This document shows positions 37,665-43,519 of a stretch of DNA of 64,000 bases, piece by piece. Within the stretch, counting starts at the first letter, position 1. Each line of letters starts with the position of its first letter. Made by a program: the position numbers and the translations under genes. Below the pieces are notes generated by a model, which worked only from the letters and a program-made list of their open reading frames with translations, was not told the origin of the DNA and did no database searches. Source of the DNA: Rhodopirellula islandica (GTDB lineage: Bacteria; Planctomycetota; Planctomycetia; Pirellulales; Pirellulaceae); the NCBI RefSeq assembly GCF_001027925.1, contig NZ_LECT01000044.1, forward strand, positions 310,001 through 374,000. The letters are read 5' to 3'.

Positions 37665-37918
37665 CGACGGCGGTCTCTCGGGGGAAGAATCGGCTGTCCC
37701 GGTGGGAGGGTGCATGTGCCAAGCTGCCGTCGCAGCGTGTTGATGCACGCATCGCTCTTCGGATTCGTGTGCCACCGGGGTTTGCTATTCAGTCAGATCG
37801 ACTGCCCCGCTCGCCGAGCACTTTCTGTTTCGGTTACCTTGCATCGATCGCTGCAACCGGCACGATTGCACCTTTTCAGTCTCTTGTCACTTTTCGATTT
37901 TGGTTTGAACCGACACCC

Positions 37919-38719
37919 ATGACTCGACGCTACTACGTACCCGATTTGCGAACCCAGGCACCCGTGGTGCAATTGCCTGATGAAGAAGCGTCTCATGCGG
38001 CGAGGGTCATGCGAGTTCAACCTGGTGACCGAATCGAGTTGTTCGATGGAACCGGCCATCAGTCCGGTGCAGAAGTTGTCTCGGTCAGTAAGCGGGAGTG
38101 CGTGGTCCGATGCGATGCGATTGAGACAGTGAATCGGGAACCCCTTGTCGCGGTGGACTTGGCGATTGGTTTTCCAAAACCAGATCGCGCCAAAGAGATG
38201 GTGGAACGTCTGGCGGAACTGGGGGTCGCCCGCGTGTTCCCGGTGGTGTTTGAGCGGACGCAGCGACCTCCAGCCGACAATTTGCTCAGCAAACTTCGGC
38301 GGATCGTGATCGAGGCGTGCAAGCAATCTGGACGCAACGCCTTGATGGAGATTGAGTCGCCCATTGAATTTGAATCGTTGGCGAAAAGAATCTCGGGGGG
38401 CCAAGCGAGCCGTGAAACGGAGCCCACCGGGCAGTCTCCCGTGGTCTCTTGGCAGCGTGTCTTGGTTGCGATGCCAAATTCTCCGCCGCTGATCGCAATG
38501 GAGGATTCATGGCAAGCGTTGAAAGCTTCCGAGGCCGACCAATCCAATTTCGATGGACGACCGAGGACCTTGGTGTTGATTGGTCCCGAGGGAGGGGTGT
38601 CCGAGGCGGAACAGCAACGGTGCAACGAGTTGGGTGTCGAATCGGTTGGCTTGGGAAGCCGAATATTGCGGATTGAGACGGCTGCATCGGTTGTGGCGGC
38701 GCGTCTGGTGGTCGATTGA
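37919..38719 (+). CDS. rsmE: 16S rRNA (uracil-1498-N3)-methyltransferase RsmE
   Basis: A 266-residue SPOUT-class methyltransferase that modifies U1498 of 16S rRNA. The start ATG is at 37919 (MTRRYYVPDL), the usual RsmE opening. The PUA-like N-terminal domain has HAARVMRVQPGDRIELFDG. The SPOUT domain has KEMVERLAELGVARVFPVV, RIVIEACKQSGRN, the SAM-binding VLIGPEGGVSEAE and the knot segment GLGSRILRIETAASVVAA. A Gly/Glu/Thr-rich insertion of about 20 residues lies near 155-175. It is divergent from the ExeA-like gene and 60 bp upstream of the AAA ATPase gene on the same strand. Confidence 0.93.
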   Translation: MTRRYYVPDLRTQAPVVQLPDEEASHAARVMRVQPGDRIELFDGTGHQSGAEVVSVSKRECVVRCDAIETVNREPLVAVDLAIGFPKPDRAKEMVERLAELGVARVFPVVFERTQRPPADNLLSKLRRIVIEACKQSGRNALMEIESPIEFESLAKRISGGQASRETEPTGQSPVVSWQRVLVAMPNSPPLIAMEDSWQALKASEADQSNFDGRPRTLVLIGPEGGVSEAEQQRCNELGVESVGLGSRILRIETAASVVAARLVVD

Positions 38720-38779: not shown

Positions 38780-40180
38780 ATGGCCGACGGATCCATCCCA
38801 ATGGGGAGGGTCGTTTGGTACCACTGCGAACAACTCCAATTGCTTGCTCCACGCATGAATGCTCTGCTCACCGACACTCACAATTTCGAATCCGCCGCGC
38901 TTGGCGGTTTGTTGACGGACGATACGTTTTGGCCGGCCGAACCCCGTTCGCTCAATGAACTCGGGTTGTCGGTCAGCTTCATCGAAGCGTTGACGATCAA
39001 ATCCATCCATCAGATTGGCACCATCAGCGGCCGCAACGTGGCGACGATGATGGGATTGCCGTTCCGGTTGGTGGAGCCAATTGTGGATGCACTGCGAACC
39101 CGAAAGTTTGTGGCGCACGTGCGACCGGCTGCGTTCAACGACTACTACTATTCATTGACCGAGTTGGGACAGAAGCGAGCGCAGACTCACCTGCAGCAAT
39201 GCAGTTACATCGGGCCTGCTCCCGTGCCTTTGGCGGACTACACACTCAGTGTGGAAGCTCAAGCGGCCGGTGTGGATCCGATTGAGCGAGATGATTTGCA
39301 AGCTTCGCTTTCGAAGATCTCTTATCAAGACGAACTGCTCGATCAGATTGGCCCCGCCATCAACAGCAACACCGGGATGTTCCTTTTTGGTCCTCCCGGC
39401 AATGGGAAAACGACCATCGCCCGCAGTTTGACGCAGTGCTTGGGACAAGAAATCTGGATCCCGCATGCAATTTTGGACGACGGGAATCTGATCAAAGTCA
39501 AGGACGATGCCTATCACAAAGAGGCACCCGTGCCAGAAGGCGACGGTCAATTGTTGAAGTCTCAAGAGTGGGACAAGCGGTGGGTGCGGATTCAACGGCC
39601 CAGCGTTGTGGTGGGAGGCGAGTTGGTGATGGAGAACCTGGAAGTCCGCCACGATCACCGCTCCAACATTTGCGAAGCTCCGCTTCAAATGAAGAGCAAC
39701 TGTGGTTGCTTGTTGATTGATGACTTCGGGCGTCAACGCATCGCGCCGGAAGAATTGCTCAATCGCTGGATCGTGCCGTTGGAGAATCGTTGCGATTACT
39801 TGACGTTGCCGACCGGCAAGAAAATTCAAATTCCGTTCGAGCAGCTCATCTTGTTTTCAACCAACCTGAATCCAGATGATCTGGTCGACGAAGCATTCCT
39901 TCGTCGTGTGCCGTACAAAATTTTTGTGAACGATCCATCCCCAGAAGAGTTTCGTTCGCTGATGAAAACCGTTGCTTCTCAGATGGGGTTTCCAGAAACC
40001 CCGGAAGCGGCCAATCATCTCTTGGCTTACTACCAACAGAACGATCGCCCGCCACGTCGCTGCCATCCACGAGATTTGCTGACACAGGTTGCCAATTTTT
40101 GCAGGTATCGTCGATTGCCTTTGACGTTGCGACCTGAGTACCTGGATCAAGCCTGCCGTAGTTACTTCAGTGCTCTTTGA
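38780..40180 (+). CDS. AAA ATPase with N-terminal winged-helix-like domain
   Basis: A 466-residue protein (ATG 38780; ATG 38855 is an alternative start). The N-terminal domain (about 55-150) runs RSLNELGLSVSFIEALTIKS, then MMGLPFRLVEPIVDALRTRKF and YYSLTELGQKRA. This is a winged-helix pattern seen in a family of AAA proteins of unknown role. The AAA core has Walker A GPPGNGKT (204-211), Walker B CGCLLIDDFGRQ (around 310-320), sensor ILFSTNLNP and the arginine region AFLRRVPYK. The C-terminal helical lid is also present. An inserted segment of about 60 residues follows Walker A. It is upstream of, and co-directional with, the kinase-tubulin gene after 99 bp, so a joint function is plausible. 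Confidence 0.8.
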   Translation: MADGSIPMGRVVWYHCEQLQLLAPRMNALLTDTHNFESAALGGLLTDDTFWPAEPRSLNELGLSVSFIEALTIKSIHQIGTISGRNVATMMGLPFRLVEPIVDALRTRKFVAHVRPAAFNDYYYSLTELGQKRAQTHLQQCSYIGPAPVPLADYTLSVEAQAAGVDPIERDDLQASLSKISYQDELLDQIGPAINSNTGMFLFGPPGNGKTTIARSLTQCLGQEIWIPHAILDDGNLIKVKDDAYHKEAPVPEGDGQLLKSQEWDKRWVRIQRPSVVVGGELVMENLEVRHDHRSNICEAPLQMKSNCGCLLIDDFGRQRIAPEELLNRWIVPLENRCDYLTLPTGKKIQIPFEQLILFSTNLNPDDLVDEAFLRRVPYKIFVNDPSPEEFRSLMKTVASQMGFPETPEAANHLLAYYQQNDRPPRRCHPRDLLTQVANFCRYRRLPLTLRPEYLDQACRSYFSAL

Positions 40181-40279
40181 TTCTTTCCCGACGGATTGAA
40201 AAACGAGGTGGTGATCCGCTTCGCCGACAACTCAAATCATTCTCTTCCAAGTCTTTTCACTGTTGTTCAGTGTCGCCCG

Positions 40280-43200
40280 ATGACCGTCAAAACAACCCAC
40301 ACGATCGCACCAGGTTACGAGCCCATCTCCGGTTACAGGCTGGAAAAGAAGATTGGCGAAGGCGGCTTTGGTGAGGTGTGGCGCGCCAATGCGCCAGGCG
40401 GGCTCAAGAAGGCGGTTAAATTTGTCTTTGGTGCCAAAGATGCCAAGCGTGGTTCCCGCGAATTGAAGTCGTTGGAACGGATCAAAGGGGTCCACCACCC
40501 GTTCTTGTTGACGCTCGAGCGGTTCGGCATTGTGAATGACCGGTTGGTCATCGTGACGGAGTTGGCCGACGGATCACTCGAAGATGTTCTCAAACGACAC
40601 CAAGACCGTGGGTCGTGTGGAATCCCTCGCGCGGCATTGCTTTCGTACTTGCATGACGCGGCGGATGCACTGGACTATCTGCATGGCAGCTACCAATTGC
40701 AGCATCTCGACGTGAAGCCAGGCAACTTGTTGCTTGTCGGTGGGCACGTGAAAGTGGGTGACTTTGGGTTGCTGAAAGATTTACGCGAGATCGATCATTC
40801 GGTGATCGGCGGTCTGACACCAATCTACGCGCCGCCCGAATTGTTTGATGGCCGGCCCAGCATCAACAGCGACCAGTACTCCTTGGCGGTGATGTACCAA
40901 GAGTTGCTGACGGGAACGCGGCCGTTTGCTGGGCGCACGATCGCTCAGTTGGCGACACAACACATTCATGCTGCGCCTGTGCTGGACTCGTTGCCAGCGG
41001 CGGACCGTGTGGCCGTGGCTCGCGCCCTTGAAAAAGATCCTGAACGGCGTTTTGAATCTTGCAAGGATTTTGTCGAGGCTCTCCGCACCCCGCGTGGACG
41101 CGAAGGGACAGTGGTTCAGACAACGACCAAGGCTAGCGTTCTCACCCGGCAAGAAGCGGTGGAAGATCTGCCAAGTTTGCAATCCAGGTGTGCAATCTTT
41201 CATGGACGTGTCACCGGTCACGCCTTGGTGGTCGCCGTCGGCGGTGCCGGGGCCGAATGCCTGCACGAACTGCGGAGTCGCGTCGCGACGCTGCACAGTG
41301 CATGCCCGCTGGATTTGCATTCGGTGTTGATTGACACCGACATGAACGCCATTCATGCCGCCCGTCTGGCGGAGGCATCCGATCGCATCCCTCCCGCAAC
41401 CATTCTGCACACGCCGCTGAAGTCTGCTCAGCAATACCGAGAAGGTCGAACCGATCATTTTCGTTCGTTGTCCCGACGTTGGATCTACAACGTGCCGCGC
41501 AGCGGCGCGACCGAAGGCATGCGTCCTCTGGGGCGCTTGGCGATGGTTGACCATGCGAAAAGCATTGACACGGGACTTCGCGAATCAATTGATCACTTGG
41601 CGGCCGTCTGTGGTGACCGCGTGCCTTCCGTTTACATCGTGGGTTCTCTTTCGGGAGGAACCGCCAGCGGCATGGTGATGGATCTGGCGCCACGAATTCG
41701 AACGTTGTTGGATGAAGCGGGGCTGGAAAGTGCTTCGGTTTTGCCGTTGCTTTCGACGGTGTCGTTGCAGGGCAATCCGCATCAACCGCTGACGTTGCAT
41801 GATTCGCATGCAGCGGTGTCTGAAATCGGGCACTACATGTTGCCGGAGAACAGTTATCCCGGCGATTCGGGGATTCAGTGGCAAGGTGTGCCGGCATCAC
41901 GAAACCCGCTTCGCAACGCGTATGTGGTGGTGGATGGAGATCATGCTCTGCCTGATTCTTGTTCCGCAGCGGCAACCATCGTGGATTACCTGTGGGTGGA
42001 TGCCACCGGCGCTGGGGACTTGCTGGCGGAAGCTCGCCGCAGTGACCAAGCCGACGCGGGGATGCTCGCCAAGCCAATGTTGCGTTCGGTTGGTGTGTCG
42101 CGTCTGAAATGCGTTCGGGCTTTGGAAGAAAACCTGTTGGCTCCCACCACGGCAAGGCATTTGTTGCTTCGTTGGTTGGGGAATCCGAATGAATCACGGC
42201 AGATCGCCGGGCTGACCGCCGAGCGTCTACGCAAACGATGTGGCCTGGATGTCGCTTCTTACCTGGACGAAGCGAAGTCGCCTTTTGGTCAAGACAGCGA
42301 TGCGATCACCCGCCACCTTTCCGATTTGATTTCACGCATTCCTGTGCCGGAATTGTTGGAAGGAACCAAGATCACACGGTTGTTGAAAGAGACGCTGAGT
42401 GAATGCGACGTTCTGCATCGACTGGATCGTCGGGCTGCAACTCAAATGGTGATGCTGCGCCGCGAAATTTCGGTGCGGATGCACGATGGGCGAATTGATG
42501 TCACCTCCAGTGTGCAAGCCACCGAAGGGCTGATGAAGTGGTGCAACGACGCGGTGCAAGAGTTGGGACAATTCCGTTTGGATCTGCGACGTCAACAAGA
42601 CGAAGAACGCAAAAAGGGAGCCTCCCAGCAAAATCTGGAAATGGAGATCGAGTCGGTCGAGAAGTTGGCGATGATGGAACTGGATGTGATCGCATCGGAA
42701 CTAGCTGCGGAGCAACTGAAGGCATTCACAGAGCGTGTGAAGACCTTGCATGAAACGCTGACCAAAATGGCGATTCGAATTGCACAAGCGATCCGTTGTG
42801 TTCCCGGTGACAATCGGGACACAGAAAACCCTTGGGAAGAGATGCCGCAAGAAATCCAAATGCGTTTCAATCCTGTGCTGGAGGATTTGCATTCGCAGAC
42901 CGCGTCCACTTGGTTGCTTGGCCCGTTGCGGGACTCCAAGGTCGAATGGGACGAGCAAGCGATGGCGGCCGATTTGGTTGCCAAGTGTTTGCCGGTGATC
43001 GAAAATGTGATCGACTCGCATCGACATTCTTCCGAAAATCTCACCGACACATCGACTTCAGCGGCAGCGGCGTTGACTCATGAATCAGAAATGACCAACA
43101 CGCAAACCATTCCCGTCTCACGAGACACCAACACGGCGCAACTCGTCAAAACAGGCATTTGTGAAACGCAGACGTTTGAACGCAAGCCGGGGGGCAATTC

Positions 43201-43519
43201 CTTGTGGACCGAGCAGACAACGATTGAGTCCGCTTTGCAAGTTGCCTCTCCGCCGTTGTTGCACTGTGGCGGCCGCCAGCGTTTGTTGCTGTTGGTCGGA
43301 AGCGAATCGGAGCGAGAACGGTTGGAACCCAAGGTGTCAGCTGCTCACACGGGATCTTTGACGACGGTGGTGATTCCTGGCGTCACGCCAATTCTGGTTC
43401 ACGAAGCGCAGCAGATTCCGATTGACAATGTCTTGGAACAGTTGGATTTGGTTTCCGGAGGCAACACGCAGGTCAGCAAACGCTTGCACGCTCGAACGGA
43501 TGTGGACTGGAAGGACTGA
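40280..43519 (+). CDS. Ser/Thr protein kinase fused to a tubulin/FtsZ-like domain
   Basis: A 1079-residue protein (ATG 40280; a TTG at 40196 would add 28 residues). The kinase (about 18-270) is complete: GEGGFGEVW, K47 in AVKF, HLDVKPGN (141-149), DFG at 161-163, YAPPE. A linker follows. From about 312 the sequence is tubulin-like: VVAVGGAGAECLHELR (first nucleotide loop), VLIDTDMNA, then YIVGSLSGGTASGMVMDLA (about 452-470). That last segment corresponds to the tubulin GGGTGSG signature, as in the Tubulin_2-type family. The C-terminal third has heptad-like helices (about 780-870). No membrane helix was seen. Planctomycetes of this group lack FtsZ, so a kinase-controlled tubulin-like GTPase is noteworthy. 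Whether it polymerises is unknown. Confidence 0.82.
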   Translation: MTVKTTHTIAPGYEPISGYRLEKKIGEGGFGEVWRANAPGGLKKAVKFVFGAKDAKRGSRELKSLERIKGVHHPFLLTLERFGIVNDRLVIVTELADGSLEDVLKRHQDRGSCGIPRAALLSYLHDAADALDYLHGSYQLQHLDVKPGNLLLVGGHVKVGDFGLLKDLREIDHSVIGGLTPIYAPPELFDGRPSINSDQYSLAVMYQELLTGTRPFAGRTIAQLATQHIHAAPVLDSLPAADRVAVARALEKDPERRFESCKDFVEALRTPRGREGTVVQTTTKASVLTRQEAVEDLPSLQSRCAIFHGRVTGHALVVAVGGAGAECLHELRSRVATLHSACPLDLHSVLIDTDMNAIHAARLAEASDRIPPATILHTPLKSAQQYREGRTDHFRSLSRRWIYNVPRSGATEGMRPLGRLAMVDHAKSIDTGLRESIDHLAAVCGDRVPSVYIVGSLSGGTASGMVMDLAPRIRTLLDEAGLESASVLPLLSTVSLQGNPHQPLTLHDSHAAVSEIGHYMLPENSYPGDSGIQWQGVPASRNPLRNAYVVVDGDHALPDSCSAAATIVDYLWVDATGAGDLLAEARRSDQADAGMLAKPMLRSVGVSRLKCVRALEENLLAPTTARHLLLRWLGNPNESRQIAGLTAERLRKRCGLDVASYLDEAKSPFGQDSDAITRHLSDLISRIPVPELLEGTKITRLLKETLSECDVLHRLDRRAATQMVMLRREISVRMHDGRIDVTSSVQATEGLMKWCNDAVQELGQFRLDLRRQQDEERKKGASQQNLEMEIESVEKLAMMELDVIASELAAEQLKAFTERVKTLHETLTKMAIRIAQAIRCVPGDNRDTENPWEEMPQEIQMRFNPVLEDLHSQTASTWLLGPLRDSKVEWDEQAMAADLVAKCLPVIENVIDSHRHSSENLTDTSTSAAAALTHESEMTNTQTIPVSRDTNTAQLVKTGICETQTFERKPGGNSLWTEQTTIESALQVASPPLLHCGGRQRLLLLVGSESERERLEPKVSAAHTGSLTTVVIPGVTPILVHEAQQIPIDNVLEQLDLVSGGNTQVSKRLHARTDVDWKD

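Follow-up and report, generated by a model that had tools for sequence, protein, structure and literature searches.

A kinase–tubulin fusion with a predicted split tubulin fold and recurring AAA and FHA-EAL partners in Rhodopirellula islandica and related planctomycetes

Described relatives of the fusion

The family FtsZl1 was described by Makarova & Koonin (2010), who also noted its kinase fusions in planctomycetes (PMC2875224). Since then, this branch of the tubulin superfamily has remained a prediction whose function is obscure; in the available sections of the 2010 paper, likeness to FtsZ or tubulin in the T6–H7 or C-terminal regions was not confidently identified, and both the C-terminal elements and filament formation were left open (PMC2875224). 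Those sections give the prediction that FtsZl1 forms a filament for membrane or envelope remodelling, the view of a reviewer that a transport or signalling role applies instead, a reviewer's mention of one diguanylate phosphodiesterase (Psta_0487), and the observation that FtsZl1 gene contexts follow lineage (PMC2875224). The nearest experimental lead that we found is Sll0445 of Synechocystis, which shares the Tubulin_2 domain with the fusion studied here; its mutant is impaired in phototaxis, and the protein has been reported with Sll0446/Sll0447 and also with photosystem interactions. The neighbours reported in the available text carry FtsA and DivIC domains, without the kinase, AAA or FHA-EAL of the fusion loci (PMC9880817). 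Tubulin homologues with coiled coils also occur in multi-gene, predicted GTPase-centred conflict systems, although in these, in the portion of the survey available, GTPases are accompanied by vWA, HSP70 and other genes, none of which we saw recurring near the fusion (PMC7159879).

The original prediction for this DNA was of an uncharacterised module, a description that does not suit the fusion, which already appears in the accessible parts of two papers (PMC2875224, PMC9871819). In the literature searched, with the supplementary neighbour lists of the 2010 paper outside the search, we found no report of the AAA or FHA-EAL pairing or of the split fold except the Psta_0487 remark, and a partial earlier notice of the AAA and FHA-EAL partners in the 2010 paper is possible. 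What we add to that paper is a whole but split tubulin fold in the structure model, a linked AAA gene and a third partner, FHA-EAL.

Locus and domain architecture

The window, by which we mean the whole stretch of DNA analysed, comprises 64,000 nt of R. islandica (GCF_001027925.1, contig NZ_LECT01000044.1, positions 310,001–374,000, forward strand). Gene calls from a simple longest-ORF script place two plus-strand ORFs at 38780–40180 (466 aa) and 40196–43519 (1107 aa), which match exactly the pair of genes predicted on one strand at 38780–43519 (Table 1). For the fusion, the probable start is ATG 40280, the place where the Rhodopirellula europaea ORF also begins, and not TTG 40196; the ATG start given for the AAA protein is a guess. 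Window neighbours with an annotation are ordinary (RsmE, HAD and MMPL in a Pfam scan).

Table 1 Features of the AAA and kinase–tubulin genes in window coordinates
Feature	Residues	Coordinates	Strand	Basis
AAA ATPase partner		38855..40180	+	ORF from 38780, 466 aa; 441 aa from ATG 38855 (guessed start)
Kinase–tubulin fusion protein		40280..43519	+	ORF from TTG 40196, 1107 aa; 1079 aa from ATG 40280 (probable start)
Ser/Thr kinase domain	47–285	40334..41050	+	Pfam PF00069 (Pkinase), E 4e-30
Tubulin-like core	340–664	41213..42187	+	PF13809; structure models; nucleotide-binding domain plus first strand and helix of C-terminal domain
T4 nucleotide loop SGGTASG	486–492	41651..41671	+	Alignment with relatives
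Helical/coiled-coil insert	665–1005	42188..43210	+	DSSP, pLDDT, composition, 72% R. europaea identity
C-terminal ~100 residues	1006–1107	43211..43516	+	Full versus truncated model; alignment; strand-helix-strand-strand

Protein identity to R. europaea is 98% for the AAA protein and 92–96% in the three folded parts of the fusion (kinase, tubulin core and C terminus), falling to 72% in the insert; between the two species, synonymous sites at this locus are near saturation despite the 92–98% protein identity. The kinase is of the eukaryotic Ser/Thr type, with the glycine loop, the Lys, HLDxKPxN (catalytic Asp and Asn) and DFG kept in 41/41 relatives, and is non-RD, HLD replacing HRD. Judged from these four motifs, the kinase is apparently active, as had been proposed.

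A Tubulin_2 (PF13809) match lies at residues 344–546 (E 6.5e-18; score 65.5 bits, cut-off 27) and spans only profile positions 1–233 of 356. The nucleotide-loop glycines are well kept among the 41 relatives, both in T1 (G349 in 41, G350 in 36) and in the centre of T4 (G487 in 41, G488 in 40). SGGTASG, singled out in the original prediction as standing in place of GGGTGSG, is indeed present here, but the loop varies and this is only one of its forms, the first residue being S in 17/41 and the position of its A being G in 34/41. Position 611, mapped by eye to the acid site of the T7 loop, is D in 14/41 and E in 8/41, and FtsZ-type GTP hydrolysis is therefore doubtful, as far as an alignment can tell. 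The fusion gave no PF00091 match at E 0.1, and a PDB sequence search with the tubulin part returned nothing up to E 1. Across the phylum, PF13809 was found in 14/294 genomes including its own, 11 of them above the cut-off; among loci L001–L015 and L129, the only ones in which the kinase was found were L001, L008, L009 and L010, within 1.5-kb flanks that can miss it.

A predicted tubulin fold opened by an insert

The structure model of the fusion matches the whole tubulin/FtsZ fold, as the original prediction had proposed for a structural check, with the best match to CetZ (3zid_B; VIA Z 23.4, 291 residues aligned), followed by BtubA (2bto_A, 21.1), FtsZ (6y1v_A, 20.9) and TubZ (4xcq, 20.8). 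The likeness is one of prediction (best Foldseek E 1.4e-5; VIA Z 20.3–23.4 among the matches listed). The predicted fold resembles CetZ, FtsZ, TubZ and tubulin (Z 20.8–23.4), but identity is at most 16% among the matches listed, and the fusion differs from these proteins in its kinase, its insert of ~340 residues, its lack of a conserved T7 acid and its occurrence in a genome without a PF00091 match.

The coiled coil had been placed at the end of the protein. A coiled coil is present, but in the model it appears to interrupt the tubulin fold as an insert of ~340 residues, and the last ~100 residues are predicted to complete a tubulin-type C-terminal domain. Compared with the full model, the truncated model aligned 49–83 fewer residues and its Z to CetZ was 19.3 instead of 23.4. 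In some alignments of the truncated model, such as that to 6wvl_B (up to residue 390), the final helix paired with a different part of the chain. Pfam gave no FtsZ_C and nothing convincing for the C-terminal ~100 residues (18 members, E up to 1). Near the end of the insert is a low-confidence Thr/Ser-rich stretch (model residues 636–696, by pLDDT). The Thr-rich stretch ahead of the C-terminal domain was considered as a conserved place for FHA to dock and rejected, as it is Thr-rich in only part of the 41 relatives.

By Pfam and model topology, the fusion thus comprises a kinase, an FtsZ-like domain, a long coiled coil and a C-terminal domain. This is the FtsZl1/Tubulin_2 architecture as given in the available account, with PF13809 above cut-off, an N-terminal kinase, T1 and T4, and a C-terminal domain that comes after a coiled coil. 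It departs from the 2010 account, in the parts available, in that the last ~100 residues make the tubulin fold complete in the model and in that the partners recurring here are AAA and FHA-EAL.

Partners and distribution

The AAA protein falls just below the Pfam cut-off (PF00004, 19.7 bits against 21.2), but the 16 aligned orthologues all keep GxPGNGK, IDDFG, an Asn and Arg pairs unchanged; we take these to be Walker A, Walker B, a sensor-like residue and arginine motifs. The AAA part of the proposed winged-helix AAA ATPase is borne out by these Walker-type motifs; its winged-helix N terminus is a sequence pattern without confirmation from a library model. By sequence, the top PDB matches are spastin, but over 27–41 residues round the P-loop (best 60 of 80 rows), and we did not rely on this likeness for a severing AAA of spastin/katanin type. 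The orthologue clade has support of 91/96, below the star threshold of the tool and with a long-branch warning. Among paralogues, a clustered AAA occurs in 18/20 regions, with no partner common to them; four of a distant subgroup (L119, L128, L130 and L133) have a common neighbour cluster, c14, which is a TPR protein in L119.

The fusion was found in 62 of 100 genomes of the family, one of which (G331) is counted although its match, in a frame of 137 aa, is confined to the C-terminal part. In at least 44 of the 62, the AAA gene is on the strand of the fusion and no more than 6 kb away, a lower bound based on 57 AAA matches (orthologue-like plus G360), and an orthologue-like AAA near the fusion was not found in 17 among the matches listed. 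It is directly upstream on the same strand in 29/45 loci; these 45 represent 44 of the 62 genomes plus G291, 41 including the window and 4 more from regions picked mainly for odd gene order. The proposed link between the two genes is thus upheld in relatives. Presence is also correlated: fusion and AAA orthologue occur as 55 both, 7 fusion only, 1 AAA only and 37 neither (Fisher, P = 4e-19), and fusion and FHA-EAL as 52, 10, 5 and 33, respectively (P = 2e-12), P values that overstate the case, as the genomes are related and the cut-offs (E 6e-148 for AAA, E 1e-40 for FHA-EAL) were set after the lists had been seen. The linked AAA of G360 (E 9e-137) is scored absent in this table, and 5 of the 10 genomes with the fusion but no FHA-EAL (G121, G312, G348, G354 and G380) do have an adjacent FHA-EAL gene by clustering. 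The two other genomes of the genus have none of the three genes at the cut-offs used.

Clustering of genes in 81 regions gave 58 AAA, 48 FHA-EAL and 45 fusion members, the next clusters having 16, 11 and 10; no further cluster of partner size recurs in these regions as a vWA, OmpA or GTPase operon would, most neighbours having no family annotation. FHA-EAL lies within four genes of the fusion in 39/45 loci. The R. islandica orthologue is on a different contig from the fusion; a second FHA-EAL gene in this genome directly follows another Ser/Thr kinase gene. Six FHA residues are invariant in 48/48 copies and the EAL catalytic set is intact in 37/48. This partner, which is not beside the pair in the window, points to phospho/c-di-GMP signalling. 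The output is not always turnover of c-di-GMP, because in 10/45 loci the FHA-EAL immediately upstream of the fusion no longer has its EAL catalytic residues and a neighbour of REC-GGDEF-CBS type lacks the GGDEF motif in 11/11 copies. Flagellin occurs in 53/62 fusion genomes versus 17/38 others (P = 3e-5), a loose association with nine fusion genomes lacking a match; pilT is universal (100/100) and so uninformative. A motility link may perhaps be drawn by analogy with the distant cyanobacterial relative.

PF00091 was found in 0/6 genomes including R. islandica (E 0.001 in that genome) and in 13/14 controls, in keeping with the premise that these planctomycetes lack FtsZ. The case for the role in division without FtsZ that the prediction implied is weak: 38/100 family genomes have no match to the tubulin part of the fusion, among them two of the same genus in which PF00091 also has no match, which makes a core division role unlikely. 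Taken as a whole, the kinase–tubulin observation is partly confirmed and its interpretation partly supported.

Interpretation

Our preferred reading, to which we give a probability of roughly 0.42, is a kinase-controlled tubulin-superfamily scaffold with an AAA remodeller, feeding an FHA/c-di-GMP branch with a surface or motility output. The kinase domain would phosphorylate Thr residues either in the fusion itself or in its partners. The tubulin-like part (340–664 plus 1006–1107) would bind nucleotide and assemble, and the coiled-coil insert would stick out from it to act as a bridge. Phosphothreonine would recruit the FHA-EAL protein and so place or tune c-di-GMP breakdown, and the AAA ATPase would dismantle or reset the assembly, the likely output being a surface or motility switch. 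The evidence points to a scaffold for signalling and not to a stand-in for the FtsZ that is missing here. What the sequences themselves show is the domain composition, the linkage and joint occurrence of the genes, and the conserved catalytic and phospho-binding residues; the split tubulin fold is predicted, and we infer assembly, the link from kinase to FHA, the action of the AAA protein and the motility output.

A machine for membrane or envelope remodelling, in which kinase-gated membrane filaments are disassembled by the AAA protein, was also put forward in the original prediction and agrees with the published family prediction (PMC2875224), the modelled tubulin fold and the linked AAA gene; we nonetheless regard it as rather unlikely, given that no membrane-protein gene recurs comparably in the 81 regions (where most neighbours have no family annotation) and that the 2010 reviewer, in the available text, favoured transport or signalling (PMC2875224). 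Quite unlikely is a non-enzymatic signalling hub, in which a kinase is joined to a tubulin-like module that is dead and serves for dimerisation, never for polymerisation. The unconserved T7 acid, the very large insert in the C-terminal domain and the invariance of FHA residues while EAL decays in type II loci would fit it, but the T1 and T4 glycines are kept, as expected if nucleotide is bound.

That kinase, AAA and tubulin homologue form a triggered anti-phage or conflict module seems improbable. The kinase matches PADLOC kinases (mad6, E 4e-43; PD-T4-6, E 2e-38), the locus is patchy within the genus, and tubulin homologues do feature in the predicted conflict systems (PMC7159879, available part). 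However, the PADLOC matches to the fusion, among the 25 listed, all lie within residues 41–331, the kinase region; those to the AAA protein are mostly P-loop, plus a weak MkoB at 65–137 (E 0.0016); the annotated neighbours in the window are ordinary; and no other cluster recurs as an effector would among neighbours that mostly lack annotation. An identity as a MADS/PD-T4-6 anti-phage kinase was rejected, with MAD6 NCBIfam at 76.8 bits against a cut-off of 460 and the listed PADLOC matches confined to the kinase region. A substitute for FtsZ in budding division would draw on the absence of PF00091 and on the modelled fold, but we hold it to be very improbable, since the tubulin part has no match in the 38 genomes noted above, and the three of them searched for PF00091 (G335, G381 and G328) also have none.

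Significance

The structure model offers a concrete, testable answer to the question left by the 2010 paper, a complete but split tubulin fold. For the kinase-controlled scaffold that we prefer, AAA and FHA-EAL become named candidate partners, and phosphothreonine and c-di-GMP a candidate output, in planctomycetes without FtsZ. A bolder version, which we think unlikely, is a self-phosphorylating tubulin relative whose fold is opened between H9 and S8 for a coiled-coil arm, and whose filament would recruit an FHA-linked c-di-GMP phosphodiesterase and be dismantled by the AAA protein. If true, it would be a counterpart in bacteria of the regulated microtubule, equipped with a kinase and a remodelling enzyme of its own and used for something other than division.

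Conservation of the gene pair

The open reading frames of an AAA ATPase and of a protein joining a Ser/Thr kinase to a Tubulin_2 domain (the fusion) were called exactly where the original prediction placed them, in a genome of 7.43 Mb. In Rhodopirellula europaea, the same pair is flanked by homologues of the RsmE, HAD and MMPL genes. The AAA protein shares 98% identity with its counterpart in R. europaea 6C, which points to a Rhodopirellula-type planctomycete. In the same comparison the RsmE homologue upstream of it reaches just 72% (307 aligned residues), an unusual contrast between neighbours.

Positions of the genes and matches discussed
Feature	Position (strand)	Remarks
RsmE-type RNA methyltransferase	37769–38719	Upstream of AAA; Pfam
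AAA ATPase	38780–40180 (+)	Directly upstream of fusion
Kinase–tubulin fusion	40196–43519 (+)	1107 aa; probable start ATG 40280
HAD hydrolase and MMPL protein		Downstream of fusion; Pfam
Second FHA-EAL gene with its kinase gene, same genome	L137:9468–14128 (contig C29)	FHA-EAL directly 3' of a different kinase gene (1193-aa Ser/Thr kinase with DUF5939)
C-terminal match, genome G331	C3:168596–168916	137-aa open frame

Among 100 genomes of the window's family, the tubulin part was detected in 62 and AAA homologues in 89, mostly with at least two matches each among the matches listed. A phylogeny of 48 AAA proteins groups the 30 encoded in fusion regions into a single clade (91/96) that leaves out the 18 paralogues. 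The pairing recurs in relatives: an orthologue-like AAA gene lies within 6 kb of the fusion on the same strand in at least 44 of the 62 genomes and on the opposite strand in one, and among the matches listed none was found nearby in 17. At the orthologue cut-off (E 6e-148, set after the list was inspected), 55 genomes have both genes, 7 the fusion alone, 1 AAA alone and 37 neither. AAA paralogues (about 37–52% identical) also occur in Planctomycetia without the fusion (regions L116–L128, L130–L135 and most of L180–L235, not L182); a distant subgroup (L119, L128, L130 and L133) has a TPR-protein neighbour.

Domains of the fusion

A structure model of residues 309–1107, built from 22 sequences (18 reaching the C-terminal piece), has a mean pLDDT of 79.6 and a pTM of 0.61. 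All 50 Foldseek matches listed are FtsZ, tubulin/microtubule, gamma-tubulin complex, CetZ, TubZ or Btub entries. VIA-align gave Z 23.4 to CetZ (3zid_B; 291 residues, 3.7 Å) and Z 20–22 to tubulins (316–337 residues, spanning model residues 32 to 799), so that the proposed comparison with tubulin, FtsZ and TubZ recovered a predicted tubulin-superfamily fold. Beyond the nucleotide-binding domain, the model has a strand (320–328, model numbering), a helix (331–353), helices up to 716, and then a strand (718–726), a helix (729–742) and two strands (747–751 and 758–767). The FtsZ C-terminal domain runs S7-H9 / S8-H10-S9-S10, and the modelled elements follow this order.

In a control model of residues 309–664, lacking the insert and C-terminal piece, strand 320–328 shrank to two residues, and pLDDT went from 88 to 71 at 321–330, 83 to 69 at 341–350 and 52 to 59 at 331–340. 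Each of the 12 chains that appear in both search listings aligned over fewer residues, the loss being 49 to 83 (6y1v_A, 272 to 223; 2vxy, 275 to 226; 2bto_A, 327 to 248; 7kzm_B3, 337 to 254). Judged by these losses, the ~100 C-terminal residues supply the remainder of the tubulin C-terminal domain in the model, and the coiled coil, originally taken for the protein's end, is predicted to be a ~340-residue insert. Identity to R. europaea agrees with this reading (kinase 96%, linker 301–339 59%, tubulin core 92%, insert 72%, C terminus 93%). Values of dN/dS for the folded parts are 0.01–0.04, rough because synonymous sites are near saturation and not computable for the insert. Pfam gave no FtsZ_C match in the C-terminal piece.

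Across 41 relatives, the glycines G349 (41), G350 (36), G487 (41) and G488 (40) are kept and an RRWxxNxP...RP block is almost invariant; at the position assigned by eye to the T7-loop acid, an acidic residue is not conserved (D in 14, E in 8). Nucleotide binding is plausible from these residues, and FtsZ-like hydrolysis is not certain. Pfam places the kinase at 47–285 and Tubulin_2 at 344–546. Because every one of the kinase motifs (glycine loop, Lys, HLDxKPxN and DFG) is retained in the 41 relatives, the kinase looks active, as originally predicted, and of the non-RD type. The module had been called uncharacterized; the fusion itself has been in print for planctomycetes since 2010 (PMC2875224) and was mentioned again in 2023 (PMC9871819). 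A 2024 study reports that, of the domains restricted to cytoplasmic kinases in planctomycetes, the tubulin-like one is the most frequent (PMC11032199).

A third partner

Neighbour clustering placed an FHA-EAL protein (both domains found by Pfam in the three copies scanned) within four genes of the fusion in 39 of 45 loci, and it is in the listed neighbourhood of 19 of 22 fusion contigs, R. europaea (L156) being among those without. Its gene mostly diverges from AAA–fusion at type I loci. At the ten type II loci the FHA-EAL gene is the fusion's immediate upstream neighbour, with AAA elsewhere or some genes off, and nine of these loci also carry a divergent REC-GGDEF-CBS-type gene (Pfam on one copy). 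Six FHA residues checked are invariant in 48 copies, whereas eight EAL residues are intact in 37, the set being degenerate in 10/10 type II copies versus a deviation in 1/38 others (p 2e-9; the sequences are related). The GGDEF motif is missing in all 11 REC-GGDEF-CBS-type companions (L077, L078, L092, L095, L102, L105, L106, L112, L113, L149 and L152), which mostly adjoin FHA-EAL and the fusion; they are apparently decayed or repurposed c-di-GMP enzymes. By these motifs, phospho-reading would be what stays constant in the system, whereas c-di-GMP turnover would vary. In the window's genome, the FHA-EAL orthologue lies away from the pair on contig C40 (73% identity to the G304 copy). The second FHA-EAL gene and its kinase are a parallel pair without tubulin.

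Distribution and possible function

Fusion and FHA-EAL (E 1e-40, also set after inspection) are both present in 52 genomes, fusion alone in 10, FHA-EAL alone in 5 and neither in 33. Four genera include genomes with and without the fusion. At the cut-offs used, fusion, AAA and FHA-EAL are all missing from the other two genomes of the window's genus. The complete set is present in G376 of g245, G366 of g222 and G324 of g241. Of their congeners, G328 (g245) has none of the three and retains a paralogue of AAA, G305 (g222) has FHA-EAL alone together with a paralogue of AAA, and G374 (g241; 72% complete) has AAA alone. In G331 the match is limited to the ~100 C-terminal residues, which may be a remnant standing alone or a gene of its own. 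Genome G081 (contig C107; L004/L015) has two Tubulin_2 matches in separate open frames, spaced by ~2 kb, with no kinase in the stretch examined.

FtsZ (PF00091) was found in 0/6 genomes, with controls positive in 13/14, in line with the original premise of division without FtsZ. With no match to it in 38 of the 100 family genomes, the fusion is an improbable candidate for the division protein of the family.

The original prediction proposed a cytoskeletal or envelope-remodelling module. The modelled tubulin fold and the AAA linkage stand; as to role, membrane remodelling by the fusion and AAA is the main rival to signalling. The closest experimental lead in the literature found comes from Synechocystis, whose Tubulin_2 protein Sll0445 is reported to be needed for normal phototaxis and to interact, putatively, with proteins of pilus assembly and of the photosystems (PMC9880817). 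Flagellin occurs in 53 of 62 fusion-bearing versus 17 of 38 fusion-less family genomes, and was likewise not found in the two fusion-less genomes of the window's genus; the association is suggestive, confounded by kinship and perhaps genome size. We therefore favour, with a probability of roughly two in five, a tubulin-like signalling scaffold that would be controlled by its own kinase, remodelled by AAA and read by FHA-EAL, and that may act on motility or surface life.
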